This document shows positions 2 through 34,916 of a DNA stretch of 64,000 nucleotides, piece after piece (position 1 is the first letter of the stretch; each line of letters begins with the position of its first letter). Location of the stretch: assembly GCA_022709695.1 (NCBI GenBank), contig JAKLII010000006.1, positions 124,001-188,000 on the forward strand, in the 5' to 3' direction. The translations under genes were made by a program, and so were the position numbers. The notes below the pieces were generated by a model. It was not told the origin of the DNA. It was given only the letters and a program-made list of their open reading frames with translations, and did not search any database. The DNA is from Bacteroidota bacterium (GTDB taxonomy: Bacteria > Bacteroidota > Bacteroidia > Bacteroidales > SKPS01).

Positions 2-3000
2 GTATTCGGATTTTCGCAGGTAAATTCCGAGCACTGCAGGCATAAGATCTTCAACGGCACTTTTGTGATCGACGGAGAGGAGAAACCATGGTCTTTGTTT
101 GATCATATAAAACGCACCACACGGGAGAACCGCAACAGGGTGGTTTCAGCCTACAAAGACAATGTGGCCTTTATTGCCGGACCTTCCATCCGCGAATTTG
201 CTCCTGAGCGTCAGGATGTACCTGCATTTTTCCGGCTGTCCGACCGTGAATCGGTGATTTCCCTCAAGGCAGAAACGCACAATTTCCCGACTACGGTGGA
301 ACCTTTTAACGGAGCCGCCACAGGAACGGGAGGAGAGATCCGCGACCGCCTCGCCGGCGGCAAAGGGAGCCTTCCTATCGCCGGAACAGCGGTGTATATG
401 ACCTCCTATCCCCGTTCCGAAGAGGGACGGAACTGGGAGTCAGACAAACTCACTGCCAGGCCCTGGCTCTATCAGACCCCGCAGGAGATCCTTATCAAGG
501 CCTCCAACGGTGCCAGTGATTTTGGCAATAAATTCGGTCAACCCCTGATTTGTGGCAGTCTGCTGACCTTTGAATACCAGGATGATACGGAATTATACGG
601 ATACGACAAGGTGATCATGCTGGCCGGCGGTGTCGGCTACGGATACCTGAAAGATGCCGAAAAGGATGTTCCTGTTCCCGGGGACCTGATTGTGGTGCTC
701 GGAGGCGATAACTACCGGATCGGGATGGGGGGCGGAGCGGTATCCTCGGTGGCTACCGGAGAGTTCAGCAACAGCATTGAACTGAATGCCGTACAGAGGA
801 GCAACCCCGAGATGCAGAAACGGGTGGCCAACGCCATCCGTGCCATGGTGGAGGCCGGAGTGAATCCTGTGGTGGCCATCCACGACCACGGCGCCGGAGG
901 GCACCTCAACTCCCTTTCGGAGCTGGTGGAAGCCACCGGCGGCGAAATTGACATCACGAAACTGCCGGTGGGCGACCCTACCCTCTCCGCCCGGGAGATC
1001 ATCGGAAACGAATCGCAGGAGCGGATGGGACTGATCATACACCCCGGTGACCTCCGGCTGCTGCAGCAGGTGGCAGAAAGGGAAAGGGCACCCATGTACG
1101 TGGTTGGACGCGTTACGGGGAACCATCGTCTCCTTTTCTCCGGCCCCGGCACAGAAACTACCCCTATTGACCTGGAGCTGGCCGACCTGTTCGGAAAACC
1201 TCCCCGCACCGTGCTTGAAGACACTACCCTGCCCCGTGACAGAGAGTCTGTGCCGGTAATGCCTGAGTTACAGCAGGCACTTGAGGCAGTGCTGCAGCTT
1301 GAGTCGGTGGCCTGCAAGGACTGGCTTACCAACAAGGTCGACCGTTCGGTAACCGGGCGTGTTGCCCTGCAACAATGTACCGGGGAACTGCAGCTCCCAC
1401 TGAACAACCTGGCGGTGGTGGCGCTGGATTACACGGGAAAGGCAGGAATTGCCACCTCTATCGGGCATGCACCGGCTGCGGCCCTGATTGACCCGGCAGC
1501 CGGATCGCGGCTGGCTGTGGCGGAGGCCCTCACCAACCTGGTATGGGCACCCCTGACCCACGGATTGGCCGGTGTTTCGCTGAGCGCCAACTGGATGTGG
1601 CCATGCCGCAACCCAGGTGAAGATGCACGGTTGTACGAGGCCGTGGAAGCCGTCAGCGATTTCTGCGTGGCCCTGGGTATCAATATTCCTACGGGCAAAG
1701 ACTCCCTTTCGATGACCCAGAAATACCCCGATGGCAGCAAGGTAATCGGACCCGGAACGGTGATCATAAGCAGCGTAGCGGAAGTGGACGATATCACACA
1801 TTGTATTACCCCCGACCTGAAACCTGTACCGGAGAGCCTTCTGATCCATATCGATTTCTCGGTGAATAACCTGGCACTGGGTGGCAGCGCTTACAGCCAG
1901 GTGATGCAGGAACTGGGTTCTGACACTCCGGATGTGACACCGGAAACACTGAAAAAAGGGTTCGGTCTTGTGCAGGCCATGATCCGGGAGGGACTCATCC
2001 TGGCCGGCCACGACATTTCGGCAGGAGGTCTCATCACCACCCTGCTGGAGATGGCCTTCCCGACCTGTAAGACAGGATTTTGTGCAGATTTAACAGTGCC
2101 TGAAGGCTTGATGCCCAACCATGTACTTTTTTCGGAACAACCCGGTGTGGTGATACAGGTCCGTGACACTGACAGAGCTGAATCCCTGCTGCTGGCTTCC
2201 GGACTCCGGTACCACGTACTTGGAAAAGTGACCACTGACGGTATTGCTGCCCTCAGATATGAAGGCGGCGAGCTGTCCCTTTCCGTAGAGAGGATGCGGA
2301 ACCTCTGGTTCAAAAGTTCATGGCTGCTCGACAAGAAGCAAAGTGGTGAACAGTGGGCAGATGAGCGTTACAGAAACTTCGCATCCCAGCCTCTCCAGTA
2401 TCGGTTTCCGAAGCATTTCAAAGGCTCCTTCGCCTCCTTCGGCATCGATCCGTTGCGGGAAACCCCCACCGGAATCCGGGCCGGAATCATCCGTGAAAAA
2501 GGGGTAAACGGGGACCGTGAAATGGCATGGTCAATGTACCTGGCCGGATTTGATGTGCGGGACATCCACATGACCGACCTGATGTCGGGGCGGGAGACCC
2601 TTGAAGATCTGCAGTTTATTGTTTTTGTGGGAGGGTTTTCGAACTCTGATGTGCTGGGTTCTGCCAGGGGATGGACAGGGGCTTTCCTCTTCAATCCCGC
2701 GGCAAAGGAGGCACTCGACAGATTTTATACCCGGCCCGACACCCTGAGCCTGGGGGTGTGCAACGGCTGCCAGCTGATGGTGGCCCTGGGGCTGCTTTAC
2801 CCCGATCATCCCAGGCCACCTGTGATGCACCATAACCGTTCTGGGAAATTCGAATCGGCGTTCCTCACCATCGATATAGAACAAAATCATAGTGTCATGC
2901 TGGGATCACTGGCAGGAAGCCGATTGGGCATCTGGGTGGCACACGGAGAAGGGCGGTTTGAACTGCCGTTGCCTGAAAATGAATACCATATCCCGGCCCG

Positions 3001-3226
3001 GTATACCTACCATGCCTACCCGGGCAATCCCAACGGCTCCGACTACGACGCTGCGGCCATCTGCAGCGCCGACGGCAGGCATCTGGCCATGATGCCTCAC
3101 CTGGAACGATCTGTTCACCCCTGGAACTGGGCATGGTACAACGGTAACGCTGCCGACGAGGTATCACCCTGGATCGAAGCCTTCGTAAATGCACGCCTCT
3201 GGATCGAAAAACACCATAAGAAATGA
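2..3226 (+). CDS. purL: Phosphoribosylformylglycinamidine synthase, large single-chain form (5' end outside window)
   Basis: Makes FGAM from FGAR, glutamine and ATP in purine biosynthesis; cytosolic. The frame is open from the first bases, and the hallmark NSEHCRHKIF is read from base 23, before the first ATG (base 65). The gene therefore enters from the left, and by comparison with the roughly 1,230-1,300 residue family about 200 N-terminal residues are missing. Seen: HDHGAGGHLNSL and its pseudo-repeat HDISAGGLITTL, marking the two halves of the synthase core, then a C-terminal glutamine amidotransferase domain with the nucleophile in GVCNGCQLM and the catalytic His/Glu region MPHLERSVHPWNW. 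It is the fused form, not the split PurL/PurQ/PurS type. The stop overlaps the next start as ATGA, so the two genes are probably translationally coupled. Confidence 0.97.
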   Translation, partial: VFGFSQVNSEHCRHKIFNGTFVIDGEEKPWSLFDHIKRTTRENRNRVVSAYKDNVAFIAGPSIREFAPERQDVPAFFRLSDRESVISLKAETHNFPTTVEPFNGAATGTGGEIRDRLAGGKGSLPIAGTAVYMTSYPRSEEGRNWESDKLTARPWLYQTPQEILIKASNGASDFGNKFGQPLICGSLLTFEYQDDTELYGYDKVIMLAGGVGYGYLKDAEKDVPVPGDLIVVLGGDNYRIGMGGGAVSSVATGEFSNSIELNAVQRSNPEMQKRVANAIRAMVEAGVNPVVAIHDHGAGGHLNSLSELVEATGGEIDITKLPVGDPTLSAREIIGNESQERMGLIIHPGDLRLLQQVAERERAPMYVVGRVTGNHRLLFSGPGTETTPIDLELADLFGKPPRTVLEDTTLPRDRESVPVMPELQQALEAVLQLESVACKDWLTNKVDRSVTGRVALQQCTGELQLPLNNLAVVALDYTGKAGIATSIGHAPAAALIDPAAGSRLAVAEALTNLVWAPLTHGLAGVSLSANWMWPCRNPGEDARLYEAVEAVSDFCVALGINIPTGKDSLSMTQKYPDGSKVIGPGTVIISSVAEVDDITHCITPDLKPVPESLLIHIDFSVNNLALGGSAYSQVMQELGSDTPDVTPETLKKGFGLVQAMIREGLILAGHDISAGGLITTLLEMAFPTCKTGFCADLTVPEGLMPNHVLFSEQPGVVIQVRDTDRAESLLLASGLRYHVLGKVTTDGIAALRYEGGELSLSVERMRNLWFKSSWLLDKKQSGEQWADERYRNFASQPLQYRFPKHFKGSFASFGIDPLRETPTGIRAGIIREKGVNGDREMAWSMYLAGFDVRDIHMTDLMSGRETLEDLQFIVFVGGFSNSDVLGSARGWTGAFLFNPAAKEALDRFYTRPDTLSLGVCNGCQLMVALGLLYPDHPRPPVMHHNRSGKFESAFLTIDIEQNHSVMLGSLAGSRLGIWVAHGEGRFELPLPENEYHIPARYTYHAYPGNPNGSDYDAAAICSADGRHLAMMPHLERSVHPWNWAWYNGNAADEVSPWIEAFVNARLWIEKHHKK

Positions 3227-3993
3227 ATGTCCCCCACTCCCCCATTGCCATCATCACAGGCGCCACCGCAGGCATCGGAGAAGCCATTGCCCGCAGGTTT
3301 GCTTCCGGCGGATACCGGCTGGTGGTTTGCGGACGGCGCGGCGACAGGCTCGCTGCCCTGGTGCCGGAACTGATCGCTGCCGGCAGCCCCTCCGTGAGGC
3401 CGCTGTCCTTTGACATTACCGACCGCCAAGCCACCGAAGCGGCATTGAAAAGCCTCCCCACGGATTGGAAACAACCCGGCCTGCTGGTGAACAACGCAGG
3501 GCTGGCCCTGGGACTCGACAGGATCCAGGAAGGGAGTATTTCCGACTGGGACACGATGATCGATACGAACATCAAAGGGCTCCTGTACATCACGGCGATC
3601 GTTTCACGGTGGATGGTTCAGGCGGGCACCGGGCACATCATCAACATCGGGTCCATCGCCGGCAGGGAGGTGTACCCGGCAGGCAATGTGTACTGCGCTA
3701 CCAAATTTGCGGTGGATGCCCTGAGCAAAGCCATGCGTATAGACCTGATGGATGCAGGGATCCGCGTGAGCCAGATTGCACCGGGTGCCGCCGAAACCGA
3801 GTTTTCACAGGTGCGTTTCAAAGGGGACTCAGCGCGTGCAGAGGGCGTTTATCAGGGATTTACGCCGCTCACCGGAAACGATATTGCGGAAATCGCATGG
3901 TGGGTGGCCCGGGCCCCCGCACATGTAAACATCGCAGACGTGCTGGTGCTGCCCACGGCACAGGCTTCGGCAGGGTTGATCAGGAGAAGCTGA
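3223..3993 (+). CDS. Short-chain dehydrogenase/reductase, YdfG-like
   Basis: Cytosolic NAD(P)-dependent oxidoreductase of the classical SDR family, 256 residues. Seen: the nucleotide-binding motif TGATAGIGEA near residue 13, GRR in the position typical of NADP preference, NNAG, the catalytic Ser in NIGSIAG and the Tyr/Lys of YCATK. Overall sequence resembles the YdfG group (3-hydroxy acid/serine dehydrogenases); the substrate is inferred and not certain. It overlaps the purL stop by 4 nt (ATGA) and is probably co-transcribed with it, although no purine role is known for this family. Confidence 0.9.
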   Translation: MNVPHSPIAIITGATAGIGEAIARRFASGGYRLVVCGRRGDRLAALVPELIAAGSPSVRPLSFDITDRQATEAALKSLPTDWKQPGLLVNNAGLALGLDRIQEGSISDWDTMIDTNIKGLLYITAIVSRWMVQAGTGHIINIGSIAGREVYPAGNVYCATKFAVDALSKAMRIDLMDAGIRVSQIAPGAAETEFSQVRFKGDSARAEGVYQGFTPLTGNDIAEIAWWVARAPAHVNIADVLVLPTAQASAGLIRRS

Positions 3994-4084
3994 CGGGCAG
4001 AGTTTTCACTTTCCGGTGTATCCGTTAATGGGAAACTTTTATCTTTATCCCCTTTTTTAGCATAAAACCAAATACCGGAATTCA

Positions 4085-5860
4085 ATGGCAGATTACCAGG
4101 TGGCGAGGCTGTTTGACATTGTTGACAGGTCAAAAGCCCTCTTTTCATTCAAAAACGATGTACTGGCAGGTAAAGAAGACGGGCAGTGGAAGCGATACTC
4201 CGCTGAAGCCTATTTCGATATCGTAGAACAGATCAGTTACGGCCTGATCGCACTGGGGGTGCAACCGGGCGACCGGATCGCTACCATTCTGAACAGCCGT
4301 CCCGAATGGAATTTCCTCGATATGGCCATCATGCGTGTGGGTGCCATCCACATACCCGTGTACCCCACCATCAGCCAGGATGACTATCGCTATATCCTCA
4401 ACCACGCGGAAGTGGTGTATGTTTTTCTGGCAGGCAAGGAGCTCTACCATAAAATCGAGGGGATCGAAGGGGATATCCCCAGCCTGAAGGAGATCTTTAC
4501 CATCAAAGACTGGAAGGAATTCCGCCACCTGGGCGAAGTGATTGAGCTGGGAAAGCAGAACCCTGTGCCCGAAGAGCTGGAACAAAGGATGGCGAAGGTG
4601 CTGCCGGATGACCTGGCTACCATCATCTACACATCAGGCACCACCGGCCAACCCAAAGGGGTGATGCTGTCGCACCGGAACATCATCACCAATTTCCTCG
4701 ATTGCGAAGATATACCGCCAATTAAAGAACAGGGCTGTGCTGTGAGTTACCTTCCCTTGTGCCACATCTATGAACGGATGATCAACTATCTGTTTCAGTA
4801 CGTTGGCCTGTCGATCTACTATGCTGAAAGCATTGCCACAATCGCTGACAACATCAAAGAGATCCGGCCCCACATCTTTACCACGGTCCCCAGGCTGATA
4901 GAGAAGGTGTACGACAAGATCATCGCCAAAGGGCGCGATCTGAAGGGGATCAAAAAGCAGCTGTTTTTCCGGGCCGTAAAACTGGCACTGAAGTTTGAAC
5001 CAGGGGTGAAATATTCTGTAGGGTACAGGTTGCAGCTCAAACTGGCCCGAAAGCTCATATTCTCGAAATGGCAGGCAGCCCTTGGAGGAAGAATCATGGT
5101 GATCATTTCGGGGGGCGCAGCATTACAGCCCAGGCTGGCACGCACTTTCTGGGCAGCCGGAATGCCAATCCTGGAAGGCTATGGGCTCACCGAATCATCG
5201 CCTGTAATTGCGGTGAACCTGCTCGAACCCGGTGCCTGCCGGGTGGGGACGGTAGGGCCAGCTCTTGCGCATGTGGAAGTGAAAATAGCTGAGGATCAGG
5301 AGATCCTGGCCAGAGGGCCCAGCATCATGCAGGGATATTACAAGGATCCAGGGCTCACTGCAGCCACCATCGATGAAGAGGGATGGCTGCATACCGGCGA
5401 TATGGGGAGGATGGTGGATGGACGGTTCCTGCAGATTACCGGCAGGAAGAAAGAACTGTTCAAAACCTCCTTCGGCAAATACATCGCACCCGGATTGATA
5501 GAGGACAAACTGAAAGAATCGCCCTTTATCGACAACGCCATAGTGGTAGGGGAAAACCAGAAATTTGCCGCAGCCCTGCTGGTGCCCGACTTCCTGCACC
5601 TGAAAGCGTGGTGCCATGTGAAGGAGATTCCCTTTACCTCACCGGAGGAGATGGTGCAGAATCCTTCTGTACGGCAGCGTTTCAGGAAGGAGATCGACCG
5701 CATCAACCAGAACCTGGGAAATACGGAACAAATCAAAAAATTTGAGCTTCTTCCGGATGAGTGGTCACAACCCACCGGTGAGCTCACCCCGAAAATGAGC
5801 GTGAAGCGCGATGTGATACACCAGCGTTACCAGGAGCTTATCGGGGCGATGTTCGCCTGA
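4085..5860 (+). CDS. Long-chain fatty acid-CoA ligase (AMP-forming)
   Basis: Activates long-chain fatty acids to acyl-CoA through an acyl-adenylate; probably cytosolic or membrane-associated. The 591-residue protein has the family motifs in order: the P-loop-like YTSGTTGQPKGVMLSHRN at about 180-198, GYGLTESSPV at about 366, WLHTGDMG at about 434 and GRKKELFKTSFGKYIAP at about 453, the last carrying the hinge and catalytic lysine region. Length and start (MADYQVARLF) fit the FadD15-like bacterial group common in Bacteroidota. It follows a 91-nt gap after the SDR gene and appears to be its own unit. Exact chain-length preference cannot be read from the sequence. Confidence 0.95.
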   Translation: MADYQVARLFDIVDRSKALFSFKNDVLAGKEDGQWKRYSAEAYFDIVEQISYGLIALGVQPGDRIATILNSRPEWNFLDMAIMRVGAIHIPVYPTISQDDYRYILNHAEVVYVFLAGKELYHKIEGIEGDIPSLKEIFTIKDWKEFRHLGEVIELGKQNPVPEELEQRMAKVLPDDLATIIYTSGTTGQPKGVMLSHRNIITNFLDCEDIPPIKEQGCAVSYLPLCHIYERMINYLFQYVGLSIYYAESIATIADNIKEIRPHIFTTVPRLIEKVYDKIIAKGRDLKGIKKQLFFRAVKLALKFEPGVKYSVGYRLQLKLARKLIFSKWQAALGGRIMVIISGGAALQPRLARTFWAAGMPILEGYGLTESSPVIAVNLLEPGACRVGTVGPALAHVEVKIAEDQEILARGPSIMQGYYKDPGLTAATIDEEGWLHTGDMGRMVDGRFLQITGRKKELFKTSFGKYIAPGLIEDKLKESPFIDNAIVVGENQKFAAALLVPDFLHLKAWCHVKEIPFTSPEEMVQNPSVRQRFRKEIDRINQNLGNTEQIKKFELLPDEWSQPTGELTPKMSVKRDVIHQRYQELIGAMFA

Positions 5861-5894
5861 AGCCCATAAAAGCACCCAACTATTGGCCACCCCC

Positions 5895-5977
5895 CTGCCC
5901 CGCAACAGGTTCATGGTGCGGTGGGTGGAGGCAGTTGTGAGCAAGGGCAACAGCAAGCGTGTGGGGAGCGGGATATG
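5895..5977 (-). repeat. Degenerate repeat, copy A (relic of small signal-peptide ORF)
   Basis: This stretch matches copy B (6856..6962) in the same orientation. The best-conserved part begins with the identical 19-mer ctgccccgcaacaggttca and continues through ggtgggtggaggc; both copies end near ggatatg. On the minus strand it reads ...ASTHRTMNLLRG..., against ASTHHSLNLLRG in copy B, but it has no start codon. It looks like a decayed copy of the same short coding element. The two copies flank the PIN toxin/antitoxin pair as direct repeats. The family is not recognised. Confidence 0.6.
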
Positions 5978-6044
5978 AAGGGGCTGGGTGGGTGGGGCTA
6001 ATGAAAGTGATTTTCCTGTTGTTCGGTTATGGTTCCGGAGCTTG

Positions 6045-6209
6045 CTACTGTCCCACAAGCTTTGCTTTGTTTTTAGTCAGATTTTCTTTAATGTATGCCT
6101 TTAATTGCTCAAAGGTCATGTTTTGAGTTTCCTGACTAATTCTGTCCCGGATCTCACGCATCATTTTTACTGCGTCTAATGTCTTTTCCTTTTTTTTATT
6201 CGTCTTCAT
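6045..6209 (-). CDS. Small putative antitoxin partner of the PIN protein
   Basis: A 54-residue, Lys/Glu-rich protein (MKTNKKKEKTLDAV..., then EQLKAYIKENLTK). The frame is open further upstream to 6242, but the ATG at 6209 gives the more likely start because the N-terminus is then a charged region overlapping the PIN stop by 14 nt. Size, charge and overlap with a PIN gene indicate an antitoxin; this rests on context, not on a recognised DNA-binding fold. The gene lies after the toxin, the reverse of the usual vapBC order. The region is visibly AT-rich compared with fadD. Confidence 0.75.
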   Translation of the reverse strand: MKTNKKKEKTLDAVKMMREIRDRISQETQNMTFEQLKAYIKENLTKNKAKLVGQ

Positions 6210-6660
6210 AATTGACCAGGTCTTTAGGGCTTCTAATTTCAATCATTGAGTAACCAAGTCTAAGGTTTACAGAATTGTAACCTTTTATCTTGTCCAGATT
6301 TACTATATGCTTGAAGTTCCAACTTGCTAAAACATCCACTTTGTGGATTGTCGCCAATGCAATATGACGGCAATCTACAATACTTGTTTTTCCAACTACC
6401 TTTTCATCAATATAGGTATCTGCCAATATTAGGGCTTCGGCTGTCAATTCAACTCTTTCGAAAAAGTCTGGCGGAAACTTGAAAAGCAATTCTTTAACGT
6501 ATGAAGGTGCGTTAATCAGTTCAAGGTCAAGCAAATCAGAAACAACGAATTTAACCTCCCTGTTTTCAAGCCTTTGAAACAACATGATGGTTGTTTCTTT
6601 GAATTCCTCATCAAAGTAACCACCTACTATTGAGGTATCAATATATATCCGCTGAACCAT
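6196..6660 (-). CDS. PIN-domain ribonuclease-type toxin
   Basis: A 154-residue protein spanning a single PIN domain, a fold used by VapC-type toxins that cleave RNA. Visible acidic residues: D8 in IYIDTSIVGG, D42/D45/E47 in SDLLDLEL, D96 in TSIVDCRHIALA and D109 in VDVLASWNFKHIV, giving the metal-binding set of the family with Asn after the last strand. It is first in a two-gene unit; its stop overlaps the start of the 54-residue partner by 14 nt, and a palindrome lies 19-33 nt before its start. Function as a toxin is inferred from family and partner. It is part of the AT-rich accessory island. Confidence 0.85.
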   Translation of the reverse strand: MVQRIYIDTSIVGGYFDEEFKETTIMLFQRLENREVKFVVSDLLDLELINAPSYVKELLFKFPPDFFERVELTAEALILADTYIDEKVVGKTSIVDCRHIALATIHKVDVLASWNFKHIVNLDKIKGYNSVNLRLGYSMIEIRSPKDLVNYEDE

Positions 6661-28537: not shown

Positions 28538-28666
28538 ATGCAGGCAGTGTATTTTCTTGCCGGTATCATCGCAGGGCTTGCCATAGGCTGGTACCTGACA
28601 AGATTACATTATGAAGGGAAAAAGGATCAGAAAGGGCAACCTGACAATCAGGACCAAATCAATTGA
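28538..28666 (+). CDS. Small single-pass membrane protein, 42 residues
   Basis: Read directly: ATG at 28538, TGA at 28664-28666. MQAVYFLAGIIAGLAIGWYL forms one transmembrane helix with a GxxxG-like spacing, followed by a charged tail rich in Lys, Gln and Asp (EGKKDQKGQPDNQDQ). It lies between the propeller gene (13 nt) and rlmB (5 nt before its ATG), so it is inside an apparent operon. No family recognised. Confidence 0.6.
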   Translation: MQAVYFLAGIIAGLAIGWYLTRLHYEGKKDQKGQPDNQDQIN

Positions 28667-28671
28667 AAGCC

Positions 28672-29427
28672 ATGACGGAAAAAGAGAAAGACCGGATGAT
28701 CTGCGGAATTCGTCCGGTAGAAGAAGCTATTGCAGGAGGTAAGGAGATCGACCGTGTGTTACTCCGGAAATCGGGGCAGGGAGAAGGTTTCCGGGAGCTG
28801 TTCAGCCTGATCCGGAAAAAAGGGATACCTTTTCAGTATGTACCTGACGCCAAACTCCACCAGCTTACCCGGCAGCAGCATCAGGGGGTGGTGGCCTTTA
28901 TCTCTGCCATTGAATACCAGAACCTCCAGGAGGTTATCATGGGGATCTTCTCCGGCGGGAAAGATCCTTTTCTGCTTATGCTCGACAGGGTAACCGATGT
29001 GAGGAACTTCGGTGCCATCGCCCGCACGGCGGAGTGCGCAGGAGTAGATGCCATTATCATTCCCGAAAAGGGGGCTGCACGTATCAATGCAGAAGCAGTA
29101 AAGGCTTCGGCGGGTGCGCTGATGAGGATACCTGTGTGCAGGGTCCCGAACCTGATTCATTGCGGCACCGAACTCATCCAGTCGGGACTCTCACTCCTTT
29201 CGGTAACCGAAAAGGGGAATGAGGATTTCTACCAGGCCTCCTATGAAGGACCTGTATGTCTGATCCTCGGATCGGAGGAGGATGGCATCAGCGCCCCGTT
29301 GCTGAAAATGAGCAGCAGGCGCCTGCAAATACCGCAGTTCGGCACCATTGGCTCACTCAATGTATCGGTTGCAGGAGGCATTATCCTGTTCGAAGCTGCA
29401 AGAAAGCGCAATCTCATCAGGCCATAA
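28672..29427 (+). CDS. rlmB: TrmH/SpoU-family 2'-O-ribose RNA methyltransferase, RlmB type
   Basis: Methylates a ribose 2'-OH in RNA, in the RlmB group at G2251 of 23S rRNA. About 251 residues from the ATG at 28672; a TTG at 28663 overlaps the previous stop and is less likely. Seen: an N-terminal substrate-binding domain (ICGIRPVEEAI) and the knotted SPOUT domain with its three motifs, NFGAIARTAE, LGSEEDGIS and SLNVSVAGGI. TrmH-type relatives act on tRNA; RlmB is favoured by the N-terminal domain and motif spelling but the target is an inference. Confidence 0.9.
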   Translation: MTEKEKDRMICGIRPVEEAIAGGKEIDRVLLRKSGQGEGFRELFSLIRKKGIPFQYVPDAKLHQLTRQQHQGVVAFISAIEYQNLQEVIMGIFSGGKDPFLLMLDRVTDVRNFGAIARTAECAGVDAIIIPEKGAARINAEAVKASAGALMRIPVCRVPNLIHCGTELIQSGLSLLSVTEKGNEDFYQASYEGPVCLILGSEEDGISAPLLKMSSRRLQIPQFGTIGSLNVSVAGGIILFEAARKRNLIRP

Positions 29428-29451
29428 TCCTGTTTACTGACTTTGAAGTAT

Positions 29452-31353
29452 ATGAATACCCCATCCGCTTCAACACCCCCCGGATCAACTTTCCGTTGGT
29501 CAGGATGGCCACTGGTGCTTTTGCTGGCGCTGAGCCTTATTCTTCGTTTGTATGGAATTGGGGAACGTTCCTACTTCAACGATGAATTAAGCGCCATTTT
29601 CAGGACTCAGACAGATACTTTTGATGAATTCGTCGAAGAAGCCGTCATCCCCGATTACCATCCGGCCGGAATCCAGTGGATCCTCTGGCAGCTGACCCGC
29701 TATCTGGGCACCGATCCTTTGGTAGTCAGATTGCCTTTTGTGCTTGCAGGCACCCTGGGGGTTTGGGTGTTGTTTCTGCTGGGCAGGATCTGGTTTGGGG
29801 AAAAAACCGCCTGGATGGCCGCCGCAGCGCTGGCATGTTTGCAGTTTCCGGTCTATTTCGGACAACTGGCACGCCCCTACAGCACAGGGACACTGTTTGT
29901 GCTGATGACAGCCTTGTTCTTCACCCTGCTTACACGATCGGCCGATCAAAGGCCCCGCACAAGGTACCTGCTGGCAGCAGCTGCAGGGATCTCCTGTGCC
30001 CTTAGCATGTACAACCACTATTTTAGTTTTTTTGTGGCAGGGATCACTGCACTGGGATTTTTCCCCATGCAGCGTAAAAAAACATTGATCCCCTACCTGT
30101 TTGCTGGGGTAACCGCCCTGGCCCTTTTCCTGCCCCACCTCGAAATCAGCCGCATCCAGCTTTCCCGCGGAGGGCTCTCCCTTTGGCTGCCCCCGCCTGA
30201 ACCAGTATGGCTGAAGGAGCACCTTCTGTATCTCTTTAATGAAAGCAAAGCGCTCACCTTCCTGTTTTCCCTTTTTCTGATTCCCCTGCTTATCAGGCTC
30301 ACCGGACGGCCCGTTCCCGGGTTGAAAAGAGGTAAGGTGTACCTGGCAGCAGGCATCTACCTGGGTTCGCTCGGCTTTGCCTGGCTCTATTCGGTGCTGG
30401 TGAATCCCATTTTACAGAATTCCATCATGCTGTTTGCCTTCCCCTTCCTGCTTCTGGCCCTCTTCTTCGGAGCCGGCGTAATACCCGACAAGTGGTTCAG
30501 AATAACCGCAATCCTGTTCCCTCTGCTGCTCACGGCACACCTGATCCTGGGTGCACGCTATTACCGGAATGATCAGTACTCGGATTTCAGAACCAATGCC
30601 TCCCTTCTGTGCGATGTACTCTCGAACCACGAAAATGCGGTATGGATTGCACAGGTGAACGATCCCTGGTACCTCCATTTCTACATGGATCCGGTATGCA
30701 AGCCCGACAGTGCCCTGACCTATCTGATCAGCAACCGGGAAGACCTGAAAAACCTCGACCTTGCCCTCGACACCCTTCAGGCCGACCATGCAGCCTTTGT
30801 GTGGCTACGACCATACGACCCGATGATCACATCGGTAATCCGCAGCCATTTCCCCTTTCTGGTAAGATACAATGCCACCCAGACCTTTGATGAGTTCTAC
30901 CATTTCTCCAGAAACATACCTCCGCCGGATGAAAACGGATATCTGTACGATACCCTCAAACTGGCTGCCTTTGACGATACCTTACATCCCGTACAGGTTT
31001 TGCCTGAAAAGGAATTCTCCGAACTTTTCAACGGGTCACTCCCCACCGAAAAGATCCCCGCAGGGCGCCCCTGCCTTCTCCATGCATCCCTCAACGGGAC
31101 AGGTGACACCAGCCTTTCGGCCCTGCAACTCGTTGTTACGCTGGAATCGAACACCGGGGTGGTAAAATCGTGGAACAGCCTGCCAGCCTCATTCCTCGAC
31201 CCCAAAGGATCGCGCTTTTTCTTTTCGGTATATCTTCCCGGTTATATCAAAAATACCGACCGGTTAAAGGTATTTTTATGGAATCCTGATCAGGAAACCT
31301 ATACCCTTGGACAATATACCGTTTCGATGATACTTCCAAAAGAACAGAAATAA
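29452..31353 (+). CDS. GT-C type membrane glycosyltransferase (GT39/ArnT-like)
   Basis: About 633 residues from the ATG at 29452 (an in-frame TTG at 29443 precedes it). Roughly ten hydrophobic helices fill residues 20-390. The first periplasmic loop carries the conserved acidic pair in YFNDELSAIF, typical of enzymes that take sugars from lipid-linked donors. After the membrane part follows a soluble domain (about 390-633), which could bind the acceptor. Such proteins glycosylate lipids or proteins in the periplasm; the acceptor is unknown. The next gene, a lipoprotein, starts 1 nt after its stop, suggesting a pair. Confidence 0.85.
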   Translation: MNTPSASTPPGSTFRWSGWPLVLLLALSLILRLYGIGERSYFNDELSAIFRTQTDTFDEFVEEAVIPDYHPAGIQWILWQLTRYLGTDPLVVRLPFVLAGTLGVWVLFLLGRIWFGEKTAWMAAAALACLQFPVYFGQLARPYSTGTLFVLMTALFFTLLTRSADQRPRTRYLLAAAAGISCALSMYNHYFSFFVAGITALGFFPMQRKKTLIPYLFAGVTALALFLPHLEISRIQLSRGGLSLWLPPPEPVWLKEHLLYLFNESKALTFLFSLFLIPLLIRLTGRPVPGLKRGKVYLAAGIYLGSLGFAWLYSVLVNPILQNSIMLFAFPFLLLALFFGAGVIPDKWFRITAILFPLLLTAHLILGARYYRNDQYSDFRTNASLLCDVLSNHENAVWIAQVNDPWYLHFYMDPVCKPDSALTYLISNREDLKNLDLALDTLQADHAAFVWLRPYDPMITSVIRSHFPFLVRYNATQTFDEFYHFSRNIPPPDENGYLYDTLKLAAFDDTLHPVQVLPEKEFSELFNGSLPTEKIPAGRPCLLHASLNGTGDTSLSALQLVVTLESNTGVVKSWNSLPASFLDPKGSRFFFSVYLPGYIKNTDRLKVFLWNPDQETYTLGQYTVSMILPKEQK

Positions 31354-31354
31354 A

Positions 31355-32023
31355 ATGAACCATACCCATCTGCTCAGGTATTTGATTTTTTCAGCGGGAA
31401 TTCTCCTGGTGGCCAGCGGATGCCAGCGCACCAGGGTTGAAAAGACCTATCATCCGAACGGTAAAACAGCTTCTGAAGTTGAATACAAAGGGTCGCTCAA
31501 ACACGGGAAAGCGGTCTGGTATTACGAAGACGGGCGTAAGGAGGTGGAGTATTCATACCGGGAAGGGGAGCTGGAGGGAACCGTAACACGCTGGTATTTC
31601 AACGGGAATATTGAATTCAGGGAAGCCTATTCCGGGAACCTGCTGCACGGAACATCAGAATACTTTTTCATCACAGGGAAGCTGTCTGAGGAAAAACACT
31701 ACCGGGAAGGTACACTTCATGGCCTTTATCTGCTGAACTGGGAAAACGGATCTGCAAAAATCCGGGGGAATTATGCGCACGGGCTTTTCGATGGCAAATG
31801 GGAATATTTCGACGAAAAGGAGTCGAAGGTGGGTGAAGCTTCCTTTCAGCAGGGTTCCGGCACCATGACCGGTTACCACAAAAATGGAAAAATCAGCAGG
31901 GTAGTCCCCTATCAGAATAACCTGAAACAAGGGAAAGAGCAGGTATATGATGAATCCGGAACCCTTACGGAAGAGTTGGTTTACGAGAAAGGGGAACTGG
32001 TTGGGAAAACCTACGCGAAATAA
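31355..32023 (+). CDS. MORN-like (YwqK-type) repeat lipoprotein
   Basis: A 222-residue precursor with a lipoprotein signal (YLIFSAGILLVASGC, Cys about 23). The rest is a ladder of about seven MORN-like units (YHPNGKTASEVEYKGSLKHG, YYEDGRKEVEYSYREGELEG, WYFNGNIEFREAYSGNLLHG, YHKNGKISRVVPYQNNLKQG). Proteins of this type are often labelled YwqK-family antitoxins, but no toxin gene is adjacent here. It is tightly linked to the membrane glycosyltransferase. A surface or periplasmic structural role is as likely. Confidence 0.85.
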   Translation: MNHTHLLRYLIFSAGILLVASGCQRTRVEKTYHPNGKTASEVEYKGSLKHGKAVWYYEDGRKEVEYSYREGELEGTVTRWYFNGNIEFREAYSGNLLHGTSEYFFITGKLSEEKHYREGTLHGLYLLNWENGSAKIRGNYAHGLFDGKWEYFDEKESKVGEASFQQGSGTMTGYHKNGKISRVVPYQNNLKQGKEQVYDESGTLTEELVYEKGELVGKTYAK

Positions 32024-32024
32024 C

Positions 32025-32055
32025 TTGCGGACAGGAAAAAAAAGTTGTATATTTG
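32025..32055 (+). promoter_or_regulatory. Promoter before the DnaB-like gene
   Basis: TTG (32025..32027), 20-nt spacer, TATATTTG (32048..32055): both elements match the Bacteroidota consensus (TTG, 19-21, TAnnTTTG). Transcription would begin about 25 nt before the ATG at 32087. Confidence 0.6.
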
Positions 32056-32086
32056 GAGCTTTAACTGTAAACCAATTCTTTCCATA

Positions 32087-32995
32087 ATGATCAAAGAACT
32101 GCCAGACATCACAGAGCGGGTGGAGGTGTTCGGGGTATCCACCGCAAGAGACCTGATAAACCGGACACTTCAACACCAGCAATTTGTAACCCCATATTCG
32201 GCGCACGAGGAGCCGAACATACCCTCGGGGTTCGAGAATCTTGATCAGATCACCAAAGGTTTCAGAAGAGGAGCACTTACCGTTGTAGCCACCAGGCCGG
32301 GCAACGGAAAAACGGCATTTTTGCTCTCTCTGATCAGCAACCTTACCCTTCAGCTCGAACGACGGGTAGCTTTGTTTACTCCTGAGCGGTCGGCACAAAA
32401 AGTAATGAACCGTTTGATCGAGAGCACGACCCGGCATTCGGTCAGCCAGATCCGGGGGGGGATGCTGAAGGATGCCGACATGGAACTGGTAAACAGCCAG
32501 ATACAGCGAATCGCCTCTGCGCACCTGTTTTTTGATGAAGCCCAGAACCTGGATGCCCGTGAGCTGATGCTGCGATGCTACCATCTGAAGGAAAAGTACC
32601 AGCCGGAGATCATTCTGGTGGACGCTCCCTACCATTACGTAAGCCACATCCAGGACACCTCGGTTCAGGCATCTGAGATGCAGGAGATGCTTGGTGTACT
32701 GCAGCATATTGCCACCGAAATGAACGTACCTGTGGTGTGTTTCCTGCAGCTCGACCGTCCGGCGCATCCGGTAAACGGAAGTATTGTTCCTGTGATGGAG
32801 GAGATGCCTCCGTGTATGGCTGCTGCCGGCGGGCAATTCATCTTCATCCACCGGCCTGAGTTCTACAATGCCCTGAACAAGAAAGTTCCCAAAGGGACAG
32901 TAGAGCTGCTGGTGTATGCCTCGAAGGATGCAAAGGTTCCGAAAAGCACCTACCTCAGGTTCATCGAAAGCATTGATACATTTGTAAATCCGTAA
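32087..32995 (+). CDS. Orphan DnaB-C-terminal-like (SF4/RecA fold) ATPase
   Basis: 302 residues from ATG 32087. The protein matches the helicase half of replicative DnaB: Walker A in VVATRPGNGKTAFLLSL (about 68-84), the catalytic Glu in ALFTPERSAQKV, Walker B in PEIILVDAPYHY, and EMNVPVVCFLQLDRP, which parallels the DnaB strand ending in Q-L-S-R. The N-terminal primase-interaction domain of about 150 residues is absent, leaving only about 35 residues before the core. The DnaB Arg finger cannot be assigned with confidence. It is probably an ATPase derived from DnaB rather than the replicative helicase; its partner is unknown. Own promoter at 32025-32055. Confidence 0.8.
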   Translation: MIKELPDITERVEVFGVSTARDLINRTLQHQQFVTPYSAHEEPNIPSGFENLDQITKGFRRGALTVVATRPGNGKTAFLLSLISNLTLQLERRVALFTPERSAQKVMNRLIESTTRHSVSQIRGGMLKDADMELVNSQIQRIASAHLFFDEAQNLDARELMLRCYHLKEKYQPEIILVDAPYHYVSHIQDTSVQASEMQEMLGVLQHIATEMNVPVVCFLQLDRPAHPVNGSIVPVMEEMPPCMAAAGGQFIFIHRPEFYNALNKKVPKGTVELLVYASKDAKVPKSTYLRFIESIDTFVNP

Positions 32996-33002
32996 ACAGG
33001 GG

Positions 33003-34916
33003 CTATTCCCTTTCTGAACCCGGATCCGTCACCAGGCCTCTTCCTGCCACGGCTCCGTAACCTGTCATGTAGGAAGCATATTTCAACGAAGGGCTTCCCG
33101 GATCAGACCCCAGCCTGTATTCCTTCCACCGCCGGTTCACTGTTTCAATTGTAGATGCATCCATGACTACCGGGTTAGGCCATTCCCGTGTAAAGCCATC
33201 ATTTTCAAGGGTTTTTCGGGTACCGTCGAAACCTGCCACCACAACCCCGGCATCAAAATCAGCCCGAAGGAAATCCCGCTCCGGGTCTATATTGCCTGCC
33301 ATAAGCCAGAGGCAATCTGACAGCGAGAATGTTGCAGCGGTGGCATCCATATAGGCAGCAAACCGGATGTGGTTTTTCAGGAGCCGGGGGGAGATGATCC
33401 GGTGCAGTTCCCTGACGGATGTACCTGTTTGTTTATCAACAAATATCAGCATGAGAGGCAGCCCTGACCGGATGGCCTGGCCAGATACAGATACCACCCC
33501 CTGAAGCTGCAGCAAAGCGTCAAGGTCTGTCTGCTCAGGGAGTGTTGCACCGGGAAGTGCCCTCGCGATGGTGGCATCCACCCCCATTTTTCCACCAAAG
33601 GCAAAGGAGCCTGAAGCATGATCCAGCACATCCAGGGGCCCTTTCTGGAAGAACAGGTCCCTTGCCGGGTCTACCGAGGAGGCGATGGTGGCAAGCACCT
33701 TCTGCGGATCATCCAGGTTCACCGGTTCAGGGAACAACACCATCACTTTGTTGAACATCATCTGTCCGGCACCCCACAGGGCAGAGGCGACCTTTTGCGG
33801 CACACCCGGAAAGGAGGCTTTTACAGATGCCAGAACCATATTGTGGAATACTCCTTCGGCGGGCATCTGCATATCCACAAGTTCAGGAGCGACCGCTTTG
33901 CGGAGCGGGAGCCTGAAGATCAGGCCTGTGGCTTTTCCGAGCCAGAGATCTTCCTGAGGAGGGATCCCTACGATGGTGGTGGGGTAGACCGCATCGCGCC
34001 GGTGGGTAATGGCAGTAACATGGAAAACCGGATAGAGGTCGGCCAGGGAATAGAATCCCGTATGATCCCCGAATGGACCCTCCATCCTAAGGGCCTCCTC
34101 CGGGTCCACATATCCTTCGATCACAATATCAGAACCTTCGGGAATCCAGATGTCGTTGGTAAGGGACCTGACCAGTTTCACTCCCTTCTTGCGGATAATC
34201 CCCGCCATGAGCATCTCATCGATGAAAGGGGGAAGCGGCGCAGTTGCAGCATAGGTGAGTATGGGGTCCCCGCCCAGAGTAACGGTCACCGGCATCCTTT
34301 TTCCCATCGCCTTGTACTTTCTGAAATGGGAAGCTCCATCCTTGTGCAGATGCCAGTGCATTCCGGCAGTTACGGCATCGTAGACCTGCATCCGGTACAT
34401 ACCGGTGTTGGGTTTACCGGTCTCAGGATCAACGGTATGGACCAGCGGAAAAGTTATAAACGGACCCCCGTCACCCGGCCAGCAGGTGAGCACCGGCAAA
34501 CGGGTAAGGTCAGGTTTCGGCATCACCACCTCCTGGCATCTGCCCCGTCCTTTGTGTTTTTTGGGCAGCCTGCGGGATAGTCTCAGCACTTCGGGGATCA
34601 GCGGGATTTTACTGATCAATCCCTGACTTCCGGCTTTCTCCAGCACCTGCATGGTATGCTCCAGATCTGTGGTAACATTTACCAGGTCTTCCACCCCAAA
34701 GGCCATAGCCATGCGGCGGTCAGATCCGAAGGCATTGATCAGCAGCGGAAAGTTGGTGCCATTCTGTTCGAAAAGCAGCGCAGGGCCGTTTTCTTTGATC
34801 ATCCGGTCAGCTATTTCGGTGATTTCCAGATGGGTGCTGACAGGTACCGAAATGCGGCGCAGTTCTCCTGCTGCCTCAAGCTGCCTGATAAATTCCGACA
34901 TAGATTCAGATCGCAT
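33003..34916 (-). CDS. UbiD-family prenylated-FMN decarboxylase
   Basis: A 637-residue UbiD-type (de)carboxylase, cytosolic. Visible: the active-site region EGPFGDHTGFYSLADLYPVF, in which Glu and Asp occupy the positions used by UbiD, then PTTIVGIPPQEDLWLGKAT and the C-terminal ADFDAGVVVAGFDGTRKT. The family uses prenyl-FMN made by a UbiX partner, which is not in this window. Bacteroidota make menaquinone, so a MqnL- or UbiD-type quinone role is possible but not shown. The start is either MRSESMSEF (34916) or the inner ATG at 34901. It is the last gene of the apparent eno-DUF4836-ABC unit, 7 nt after the permease. Confidence 0.92.
   Translation of the reverse strand: MRSESMSEFIRQLEAAGELRRISVPVSTHLEITEIADRMIKENGPALLFEQNGTNFPLLINAFGSDRRMAMAFGVEDLVNVTTDLEHTMQVLEKAGSQGLISKIPLIPEVLRLSRRLPKKHKGRGRCQEVVMPKPDLTRLPVLTCWPGDGGPFITFPLVHTVDPETGKPNTGMYRMQVYDAVTAGMHWHLHKDGASHFRKYKAMGKRMPVTVTLGGDPILTYAATAPLPPFIDEMLMAGIIRKKGVKLVRSLTNDIWIPEGSDIVIEGYVDPEEALRMEGPFGDHTGFYSLADLYPVFHVTAITHRRDAVYPTTIVGIPPQEDLWLGKATGLIFRLPLRKAVAPELVDMQMPAEGVFHNMVLASVKASFPGVPQKVASALWGAGQMMFNKVMVLFPEPVNLDDPQKVLATIASSVDPARDLFFQKGPLDVLDHASGSFAFGGKMGVDATIARALPGATLPEQTDLDALLQLQGVVSVSGQAIRSGLPLMLIFVDKQTGTSVRELHRIISPRLLKNHIRFAAYMDATAATFSLSDCLWLMAGNIDPERDFLRADFDAGVVVAGFDGTRKTLENDGFTREWPNPVVMDASTIETVNRRWKEYRLGSDPGSPSLKYASYMTGYGAVAGRGLVTDPGSERE

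Follow-up and report, generated by a model that had tools for sequence, protein, structure and literature searches.

Few bacterial machines are as conserved as DnaB. What, then, is the function of a DnaB-type ATPase of 302 residues without an N-terminal domain, in a genome that also encodes a separate full-length DnaB (contig C17, PF03796 at 364 bits) as well as a RadA (contig C15)? The gene lies in a window of 64,000 nucleotides (G000:C18:124001-188000), by which we mean the whole stretch of DNA that was analysed, taken from a Bacteroidales genome of 3.39 Mb that is 98% complete.

The short gene and its start

Residues 45-299 of the window protein match the DnaB_C domain of Pfam (PF03796) with 128 bits, for a cut-off of 27. 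We modelled the protein with AlphaFold2 (mean pLDDT 85.4), using an alignment, A2, of 47 of the 55 available loci plus the window. The model has a DnaB-like fold (4nmn, E 3.3e-19; 2q6t, Z 28.8, rmsd 3.0, 254 aligned residues), and its likeness to RadA is lower. A sequence-only reading of this DNA had already placed the protein among DnaB-type SF4 ATPases, and both the domain and the fold match agree with it. The features discussed below are collected in Table 1.

Table 1. Position in the window of the short gene, its neighbours and the segments of its product discussed in the text
Feature	Position	Strand	Evidence
RlmB/SpoU-type rRNA methyltransferase, same gene run	28663-29427	+	Pfam; order repeated in G001 and L159
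PMT_2-type glycosyltransferase-like protein, same gene run	29443-31353	+	Pfam; order repeated in G001 and L159
MORN_2-repeat protein, conserved upstream neighbour	31355-32023	+	Pfam; directly upstream of the short gene in 5/60 loci, window included
Bacteroidota-type promoter-like element TTG-N20-TAtaTTTG	32025-32055	+	Sequence; block shared with the nearest relative
Short DnaB-type (SF4) ATPase, 302 aa	32087-32995	+	PF03796, 128 bits; family of about 300 aa
Conserved T9-E10 in low-confidence N-terminal tail	32111-32116	+	T 54/58, E 54/58; pLDDT <50 for residues 1-13
DnaB-type linker helix region, residues 17-28	32135-32170	+	Profile alignment to BstDnaB; modelled helix 20-28; L28 58/58
Walker A loop R70-T76, RPGNGKT	32294-32314	+	GKT columns 58/58
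Catalytic Glu E100, then family-specific Arg R101	32384-32389	+	FSxER-type motif 58/58 short proteins, 0/35 DnaBs
Walker B region DAPY, D179-Y182; DnaB glutamine missing	32621-32632	+	Asp 58/58
Site of missing ssDNA-contact loop; two-residue deletion before P241	32801-32812	+	Motif comparison
Place of lost arginine finger, residues 277-283, YASKDAK	32915-32935	+	Motif comparison
UbiD-type decarboxylase, convergent, downstream flank of the slot	33003-34916	-	TIGR03701 above cut-off; same flank in L037 and L159

The reading frame is open from a TTG at 32045 to 32995. The likely start is the ATG at 32087, because the in-frame TTG sits within a promoter-like element and the column of the initiator Met holds Met in 57 of 58 homologues. 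Position 32025, from which the gene had been counted earlier, marks where the promoter-like TTG begins and lies ahead of the coding region. As for the element itself, which had been described as a good Bacteroidota promoter belonging to the gene, it is a likely promoter in that the block GTTGTATATTTG is also present upstream of the short gene in the nearest relative. The count of matches is weak evidence and not convincing by itself, with five in the window on both strands versus 2.55 in mononucleotide shuffles. A matching site was found in 5 of the 13 homologous loci tested, and conservation of the promoter is therefore shown for the nearest relative only.

The sequence-only reading had counted about 35 residues before the core and concluded that the primase-binding domain was missing. 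There are 44 residues ahead of the DnaB_C match, and the conclusion stands. The profile aligns the leading 40 or so residues to the linker segment of DnaB (BstDnaB 146-185), such that the protein begins at the linker and only the N-terminal domain proper is missing. The linker helix of E. coli DnaB packs against the adjacent C-terminal domain. It comprises residues 182-202 (PMC6391071). In the short proteins, conservation is higher in the tail and linker than in the core (mean top frequency 0.66 vs 0.58), and the T9-E10 stretch of the tail may be a binding peptide.

The annotated neighbours in the window are RlmB, the PMT-type protein, MORN repeats, UbiD, an ABC ATPase, enolase, RpoA, S4 and SecY, which bears out the earlier statement that no replication genes adjoin the short gene. 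Its distance to the UbiD gene is 7 bp. An antisense ORF of 398 codons (31655-32851, minus strand) overlaps the MORN and short genes and is probably spurious.

A Bacteroidales family derived from DnaB

The gene belongs to a family. The one other examined genome of the same taxonomic family has an orthologue with 49% identity over residues 1-302, and a profile built from 18 members (alignment A1) found a protein of about 300 residues in 20 of 393 Bacteroidales genomes, distributed over seven family codes (E 1.4e-127 to 6.9e-93). In a phylum-wide search of 395 genomes, the window protein was the only match of about 300 residues, and the next row (1.3e-76) was a 532-residue frame corresponding to DnaB. 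A scan of one genome per species in 84,980 species, using a single degenerate pattern that can miss members, yielded 58 loci, all in MAGs filed under Bacteroidales or other Bacteroidota names. The family has been found so far only in Bacteroidales. For the comparison of gene contexts, we used a set of 60 loci that excludes L143, a 79-residue fragment at a contig end; many of these loci come from close relatives and they do not represent 60 independent cases. The called ORFs of intact members comprise 293 to 327 residues, mostly 295 to 303. At two of the 60 loci the frame is interrupted, either by assembly error or by decay: L135 has an ORF of 175 residues and L142 has ORFs of 230 and 174 residues. 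Both were left out of the tree and the motif counts, which makes 58 members.

The phylogeny combines these 58 short proteins with 35 DnaBs, of which 28 come from Bacteroidota and seven from phages, plasmids or viral contigs. All short proteins fall into a single clade (100/100) nested within Bacteroidota DnaB, whose stem measures 1.31 changes per column. The exact sister of the clade is uncertain (86/72), and a stem of this length can mislead. Within the clade, the window member pairs with L086 at 100/98. The family is under purifying selection, with dN/dS values of 0.026 to 0.129 in 13 close pairs (Nei-Gojobori, own script). The window member is not among these pairs; what speaks for selection on it is that its frame has stayed intact at 49% identity to L086. 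It is likely from these sequences that a chromosomal dnaB gene was duplicated, lost the N-terminal primase- and loader-binding domain and had its C-terminal domain redesigned to give rise to the Bacteroidales family. Recent truncation of the resident dnaB is ruled out by the fully supported clade and its long stem.

The absence of the N-terminal domain and the two broken frames are what one would expect of a dnaB or phage-helicase remnant in decay. However, purifying selection in 13/13 pairs, near-constant length, a single old clade and phage and viral-contig matches that are distant only have already refuted such decay for the family, and it is barely conceivable for the window gene. The suggestion of a mobile-element relic made by the sequence-only reading is contradicted by the conserved chromosomal synteny, the selection in the family and the single clade. 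Nor is the protein a truncated phage helicase. It shares homology of the C-terminal domain with the phage DnaB-like helicases phrog_19 and phrog_243 (79-89 bits), the phage matches are about 25-31% identical (best 10 of 360 records), and two weak hits in the viral-contig scan are both DnaBs of 464 residues with N-terminal regions. Among the matches listed, the phage and plasmid searches returned distant DnaB only, which led us to reject a phage origin.

A defence role had also been envisaged. A subunit devoid of an arginine finger could conceivably poison mixed rings of phage or host DnaB-type proteins, and the patchy presence in 20/393 genomes would fit anti-phage defence. Nevertheless, PADLOC gave weak matches and no convincing full-length one (mad8 at 4.8e-5 over residues 49-115, PDC-S68 at 0.016), the annotated neighbours are of housekeeping type rather than defence genes, and the slot is conserved between genomes. 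A poison subunit is thus most improbable.

Motifs kept and lost in the ATPase core

Walker A (its GKT columns), the catalytic Glu and the Asp of Walker B are kept in 58/58 members including the window protein, in line with the sequence-only reading. The short proteins have also gained an Arg directly after the catalytic Glu, found in 58/58 of them and 0/35 DnaBs. In contrast, regular expressions detected none of five DnaB motifs in any of the 58: the RESG-type ssDNA-contact loop, present in 33/35 DnaBs, and the IEQDAD-type, KxRNG-type arginine-finger, SQLxR-type and Walker-B Gln (D.[LI]Q[LI]) motifs, each present in 35/35. The finger column has Arg in 1/58 short proteins and holds 12 different letters.

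In BstDnaB numbering, the RESG motif corresponds to residues 381-384 and the arginine finger to R420. R381, E382 and G384 are reported to contact ssDNA phosphates in DnaB (PMC6391071), and the R420A replacement in GkDnaC is described as abolishing unwinding and reducing ATPase activity to near background (PMC3236778). As both the ssDNA contacts and the arginine finger are lost, a DnaB-type motor cycle is very unlikely in the short proteins, judging from their sequences. In the window member, the Walker B region is further altered, with LVDAPYHY in place of DYLEL, and its binding of ATP is not certain given this change.

The short proteins might instead be unusual, RadA-like motors acting on DNA or RNA in repair or recombination, which would contact nucleic acid in a new way and use a different trans-acting residue, such as the invariant R101 or R256. 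Retention of the catalytic Glu and P-loop, the position of R101 beside that Glu and a fold common to DnaB and, to a lesser extent, RadA would be compatible with this possibility. Nevertheless, no positively charged residue consistently takes the place of the RESG loop or of the finger, whose column is so variable, and the 302 residues contain neither a RadA zinc finger nor a Lon-like domain. We consider an active motor of this type unlikely; the short protein is probably a regulator.

Neighbouring genes, putative function and known systems

In 50 of the 60 loci, the short gene is followed directly downstream on its own strand by a gene of a single cluster, whose proteins have about 180 residues (Pfam DUF2148); with L110 included by position, there are 51. 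The intervening gap has a median of 66 bp and is at most 120 bp in 46/50 loci. The outer neighbours vary between clades, and DUF2148 is the most constant link. In 17/20 carrier genomes DUF2148 is present, versus 93/373 non-carriers (Fisher p 7.9e-8, a value made too small by relatedness), and it is found in 5/7 carrier genera versus 58/206 genera overall. Its gene is adjacent to the short gene in 12 carriers, located elsewhere in five and absent from three, namely the genomes of the window, G001 and G362. A search with the family model gave no DUF2148 match in the genome of the window (in the control, 1/14 genomes gave a match). Since DUF2148 is missing there and located elsewhere in 5/20 carriers, the partnership is not obligatory. 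Besides DUF2148, no common theme was found among the neighbours: MerR-B12, ECF sigma, DnaK, SiaC and redoxin genes occur mostly within one clade. A divergent gene for a MerR-B12-type regulator lies upstream in 32/60 loci, mostly of one clade, and a same-strand gene for a SiaC-family (PF09345) phosphoprotein lies upstream in 17/60 loci (L094, L099, L105 and related ones), again mostly of one clade.

The slot itself is conserved between genomes. In the window the order is RlmB, PMT-type protein, MORN, short gene and convergent UbiD, and it recurs in G001, spread over two contigs (L054 and L037). The 3' end of contig G001:C247 (L054) and the end of G001:C290 (L037) each carry the promoter and the first part of the short gene, in copies that are nearly identical without being equal, and these paired contig ends look like a strain mixture in the bin. 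In G013, where no short gene was found, RlmB, the PMT-type protein and MORN are followed by DUF2148 and convergent UbiD (L159, G013:C219, about 217-6586). MORN, short and DUF2148 genes succeed one another in L116, L118 and L119, and RlmB precedes the short gene in L087 and L042. The simplest history would be an ancestral order RlmB, PMT, MORN, short gene, DUF2148 and convergent UbiD, with subsequent losses.

Pfam lists DUF2148 as uncharacterised, and no paper containing this word was found in the literature searched, most subscription journals being beyond the reach of the search. Its model (mean pLDDT 89.0) resembles FMN nitroreductases at a moderate level (E about 1e-6 to 1e-4, TMq 0.52-0.61), and four cysteines are invariant in 18/18 rows. 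These features, the constancy of this neighbour across several different outer contexts and the loss of every tested DNA-contact motif are consistent with recruitment of the DnaB fold outside DNA work. The short protein would then be an ATP-switch assembly for the maturation or redox control of the flavin- or Fe-S-type DUF2148 protein, or for another enzyme, and would make no contact with DnaB. However, the genomes of the window, G001 and G362 keep the short gene with no DUF2148 match, and 93/373 genomes have DUF2148 and no short gene. We regard such a redox-side function as possible, and rank it second.

Our first, still tentative, choice is that the short protein is a neofunctionalised, non-helicase DnaB paralogue that would serve as an ATP-binding regulatory subunit, probably for DnaB, as is proposed of RadB for RadA. 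The single clade with its long stem inside Bacteroidota DnaB, the low dN/dS values, the P-loop, catalytic Glu and Walker B Asp kept throughout, the loss of motifs with reported roles in ssDNA contact and unwinding, the conservation of tail and linker with a preserved DnaB fold and the association with DUF2148 all argue for a regulatory subunit. Counting against it are the absence of adjoining replication genes in the annotated contexts, the lack of DUF2148 in the window genome and the altered Walker B of the window member. The protein retains the linker helix and nucleotide pocket, whereas the motifs with which DnaB touches ssDNA and with which an adjacent subunit triggers hydrolysis are gone. 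It might bind ATP and hydrolyse it slowly or not at all, use the linker helix to assemble with DnaB or with further copies of itself, and act as an ATP-dependent regulatory subunit that would not translocate on DNA. For most members, a link between this output and the adjacent DUF2148 redox-type protein is probable; that partner is missing from the lineage of the window. The DnaB ring or its loading would be the most likely target, the basis for an action on DnaB being the kept linker helix and analogy only. It is tempting to speculate further on a replication brake or clutch, in which the ATP-bound paralogue, finger-less and blind to DNA, would insert into or cap DnaB rings via its linker helix, and the adjacent nitroreductase-fold, Fe-S-type DUF2148 protein would read in the redox state; in this elaborate form the idea is a long shot.

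No description of the short DnaB-type family was found in the literature searched, as far as listings and abstract openings go and with most subscription journals beyond reach. What appears to be new is a DnaB-derived family that fails the DnaB features tested, namely the N-terminal domain, the ssDNA contacts, the arginine finger and the equivalog score. The association with the short gene also provides a lead for DUF2148.

The profile searches place the family relative to known systems. Like DnaB (BstDnaB, 2r6a/4esv), the short protein has the C-terminal RecA-type domain with its P-loop, catalytic Glu and Walker B Asp and the linker helix region; unlike DnaB, it has no N-terminal domain, and the ssDNA loop, arginine finger, SQLxR and Walker-B Gln are missing in 58/58 members. 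Although DnaB_C passes its cut-off, the DnaB equivalog model of NCBIfam does not (TIGR00665, 127.2 bits vs 385.25). RadA/Sms has a RecA-type, SF4-like core as well, but its match is weak (TIGR00416, 35 bits vs 403), and outside the ATPase core the 302-residue protein gives no match. KaiC scores are also insufficient (NF006799, 23.3 bits vs 408; Pfam KaiC, 26.4 vs 26.6), and a known RadA or KaiC subgroup, another identity considered in the sequence-only reading, does not account for the protein.

The closest parallel may come from Archaea, where RadB is devoid of the N-terminal domain of RadA. RadB has been proposed to act on its relative RadA by changing the conformation of the latter (PMC5480776). 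Like the short protein, it is a paralogue of a RecA-type ATPase; it belongs to a different protein family (19.4 bits vs a cut-off of 278), and the parallel is one of analogy only. A dedicated DnaB paralogue under selection, in which the ATP pocket and linker helix persist and the tested DNA-contact and trans-acting motifs have been shed, would give bacteria their counterpart to the RAD51/RadA paralogues, and makes it testable whether replicative helicase rings are modulated by a non-helicase relative.
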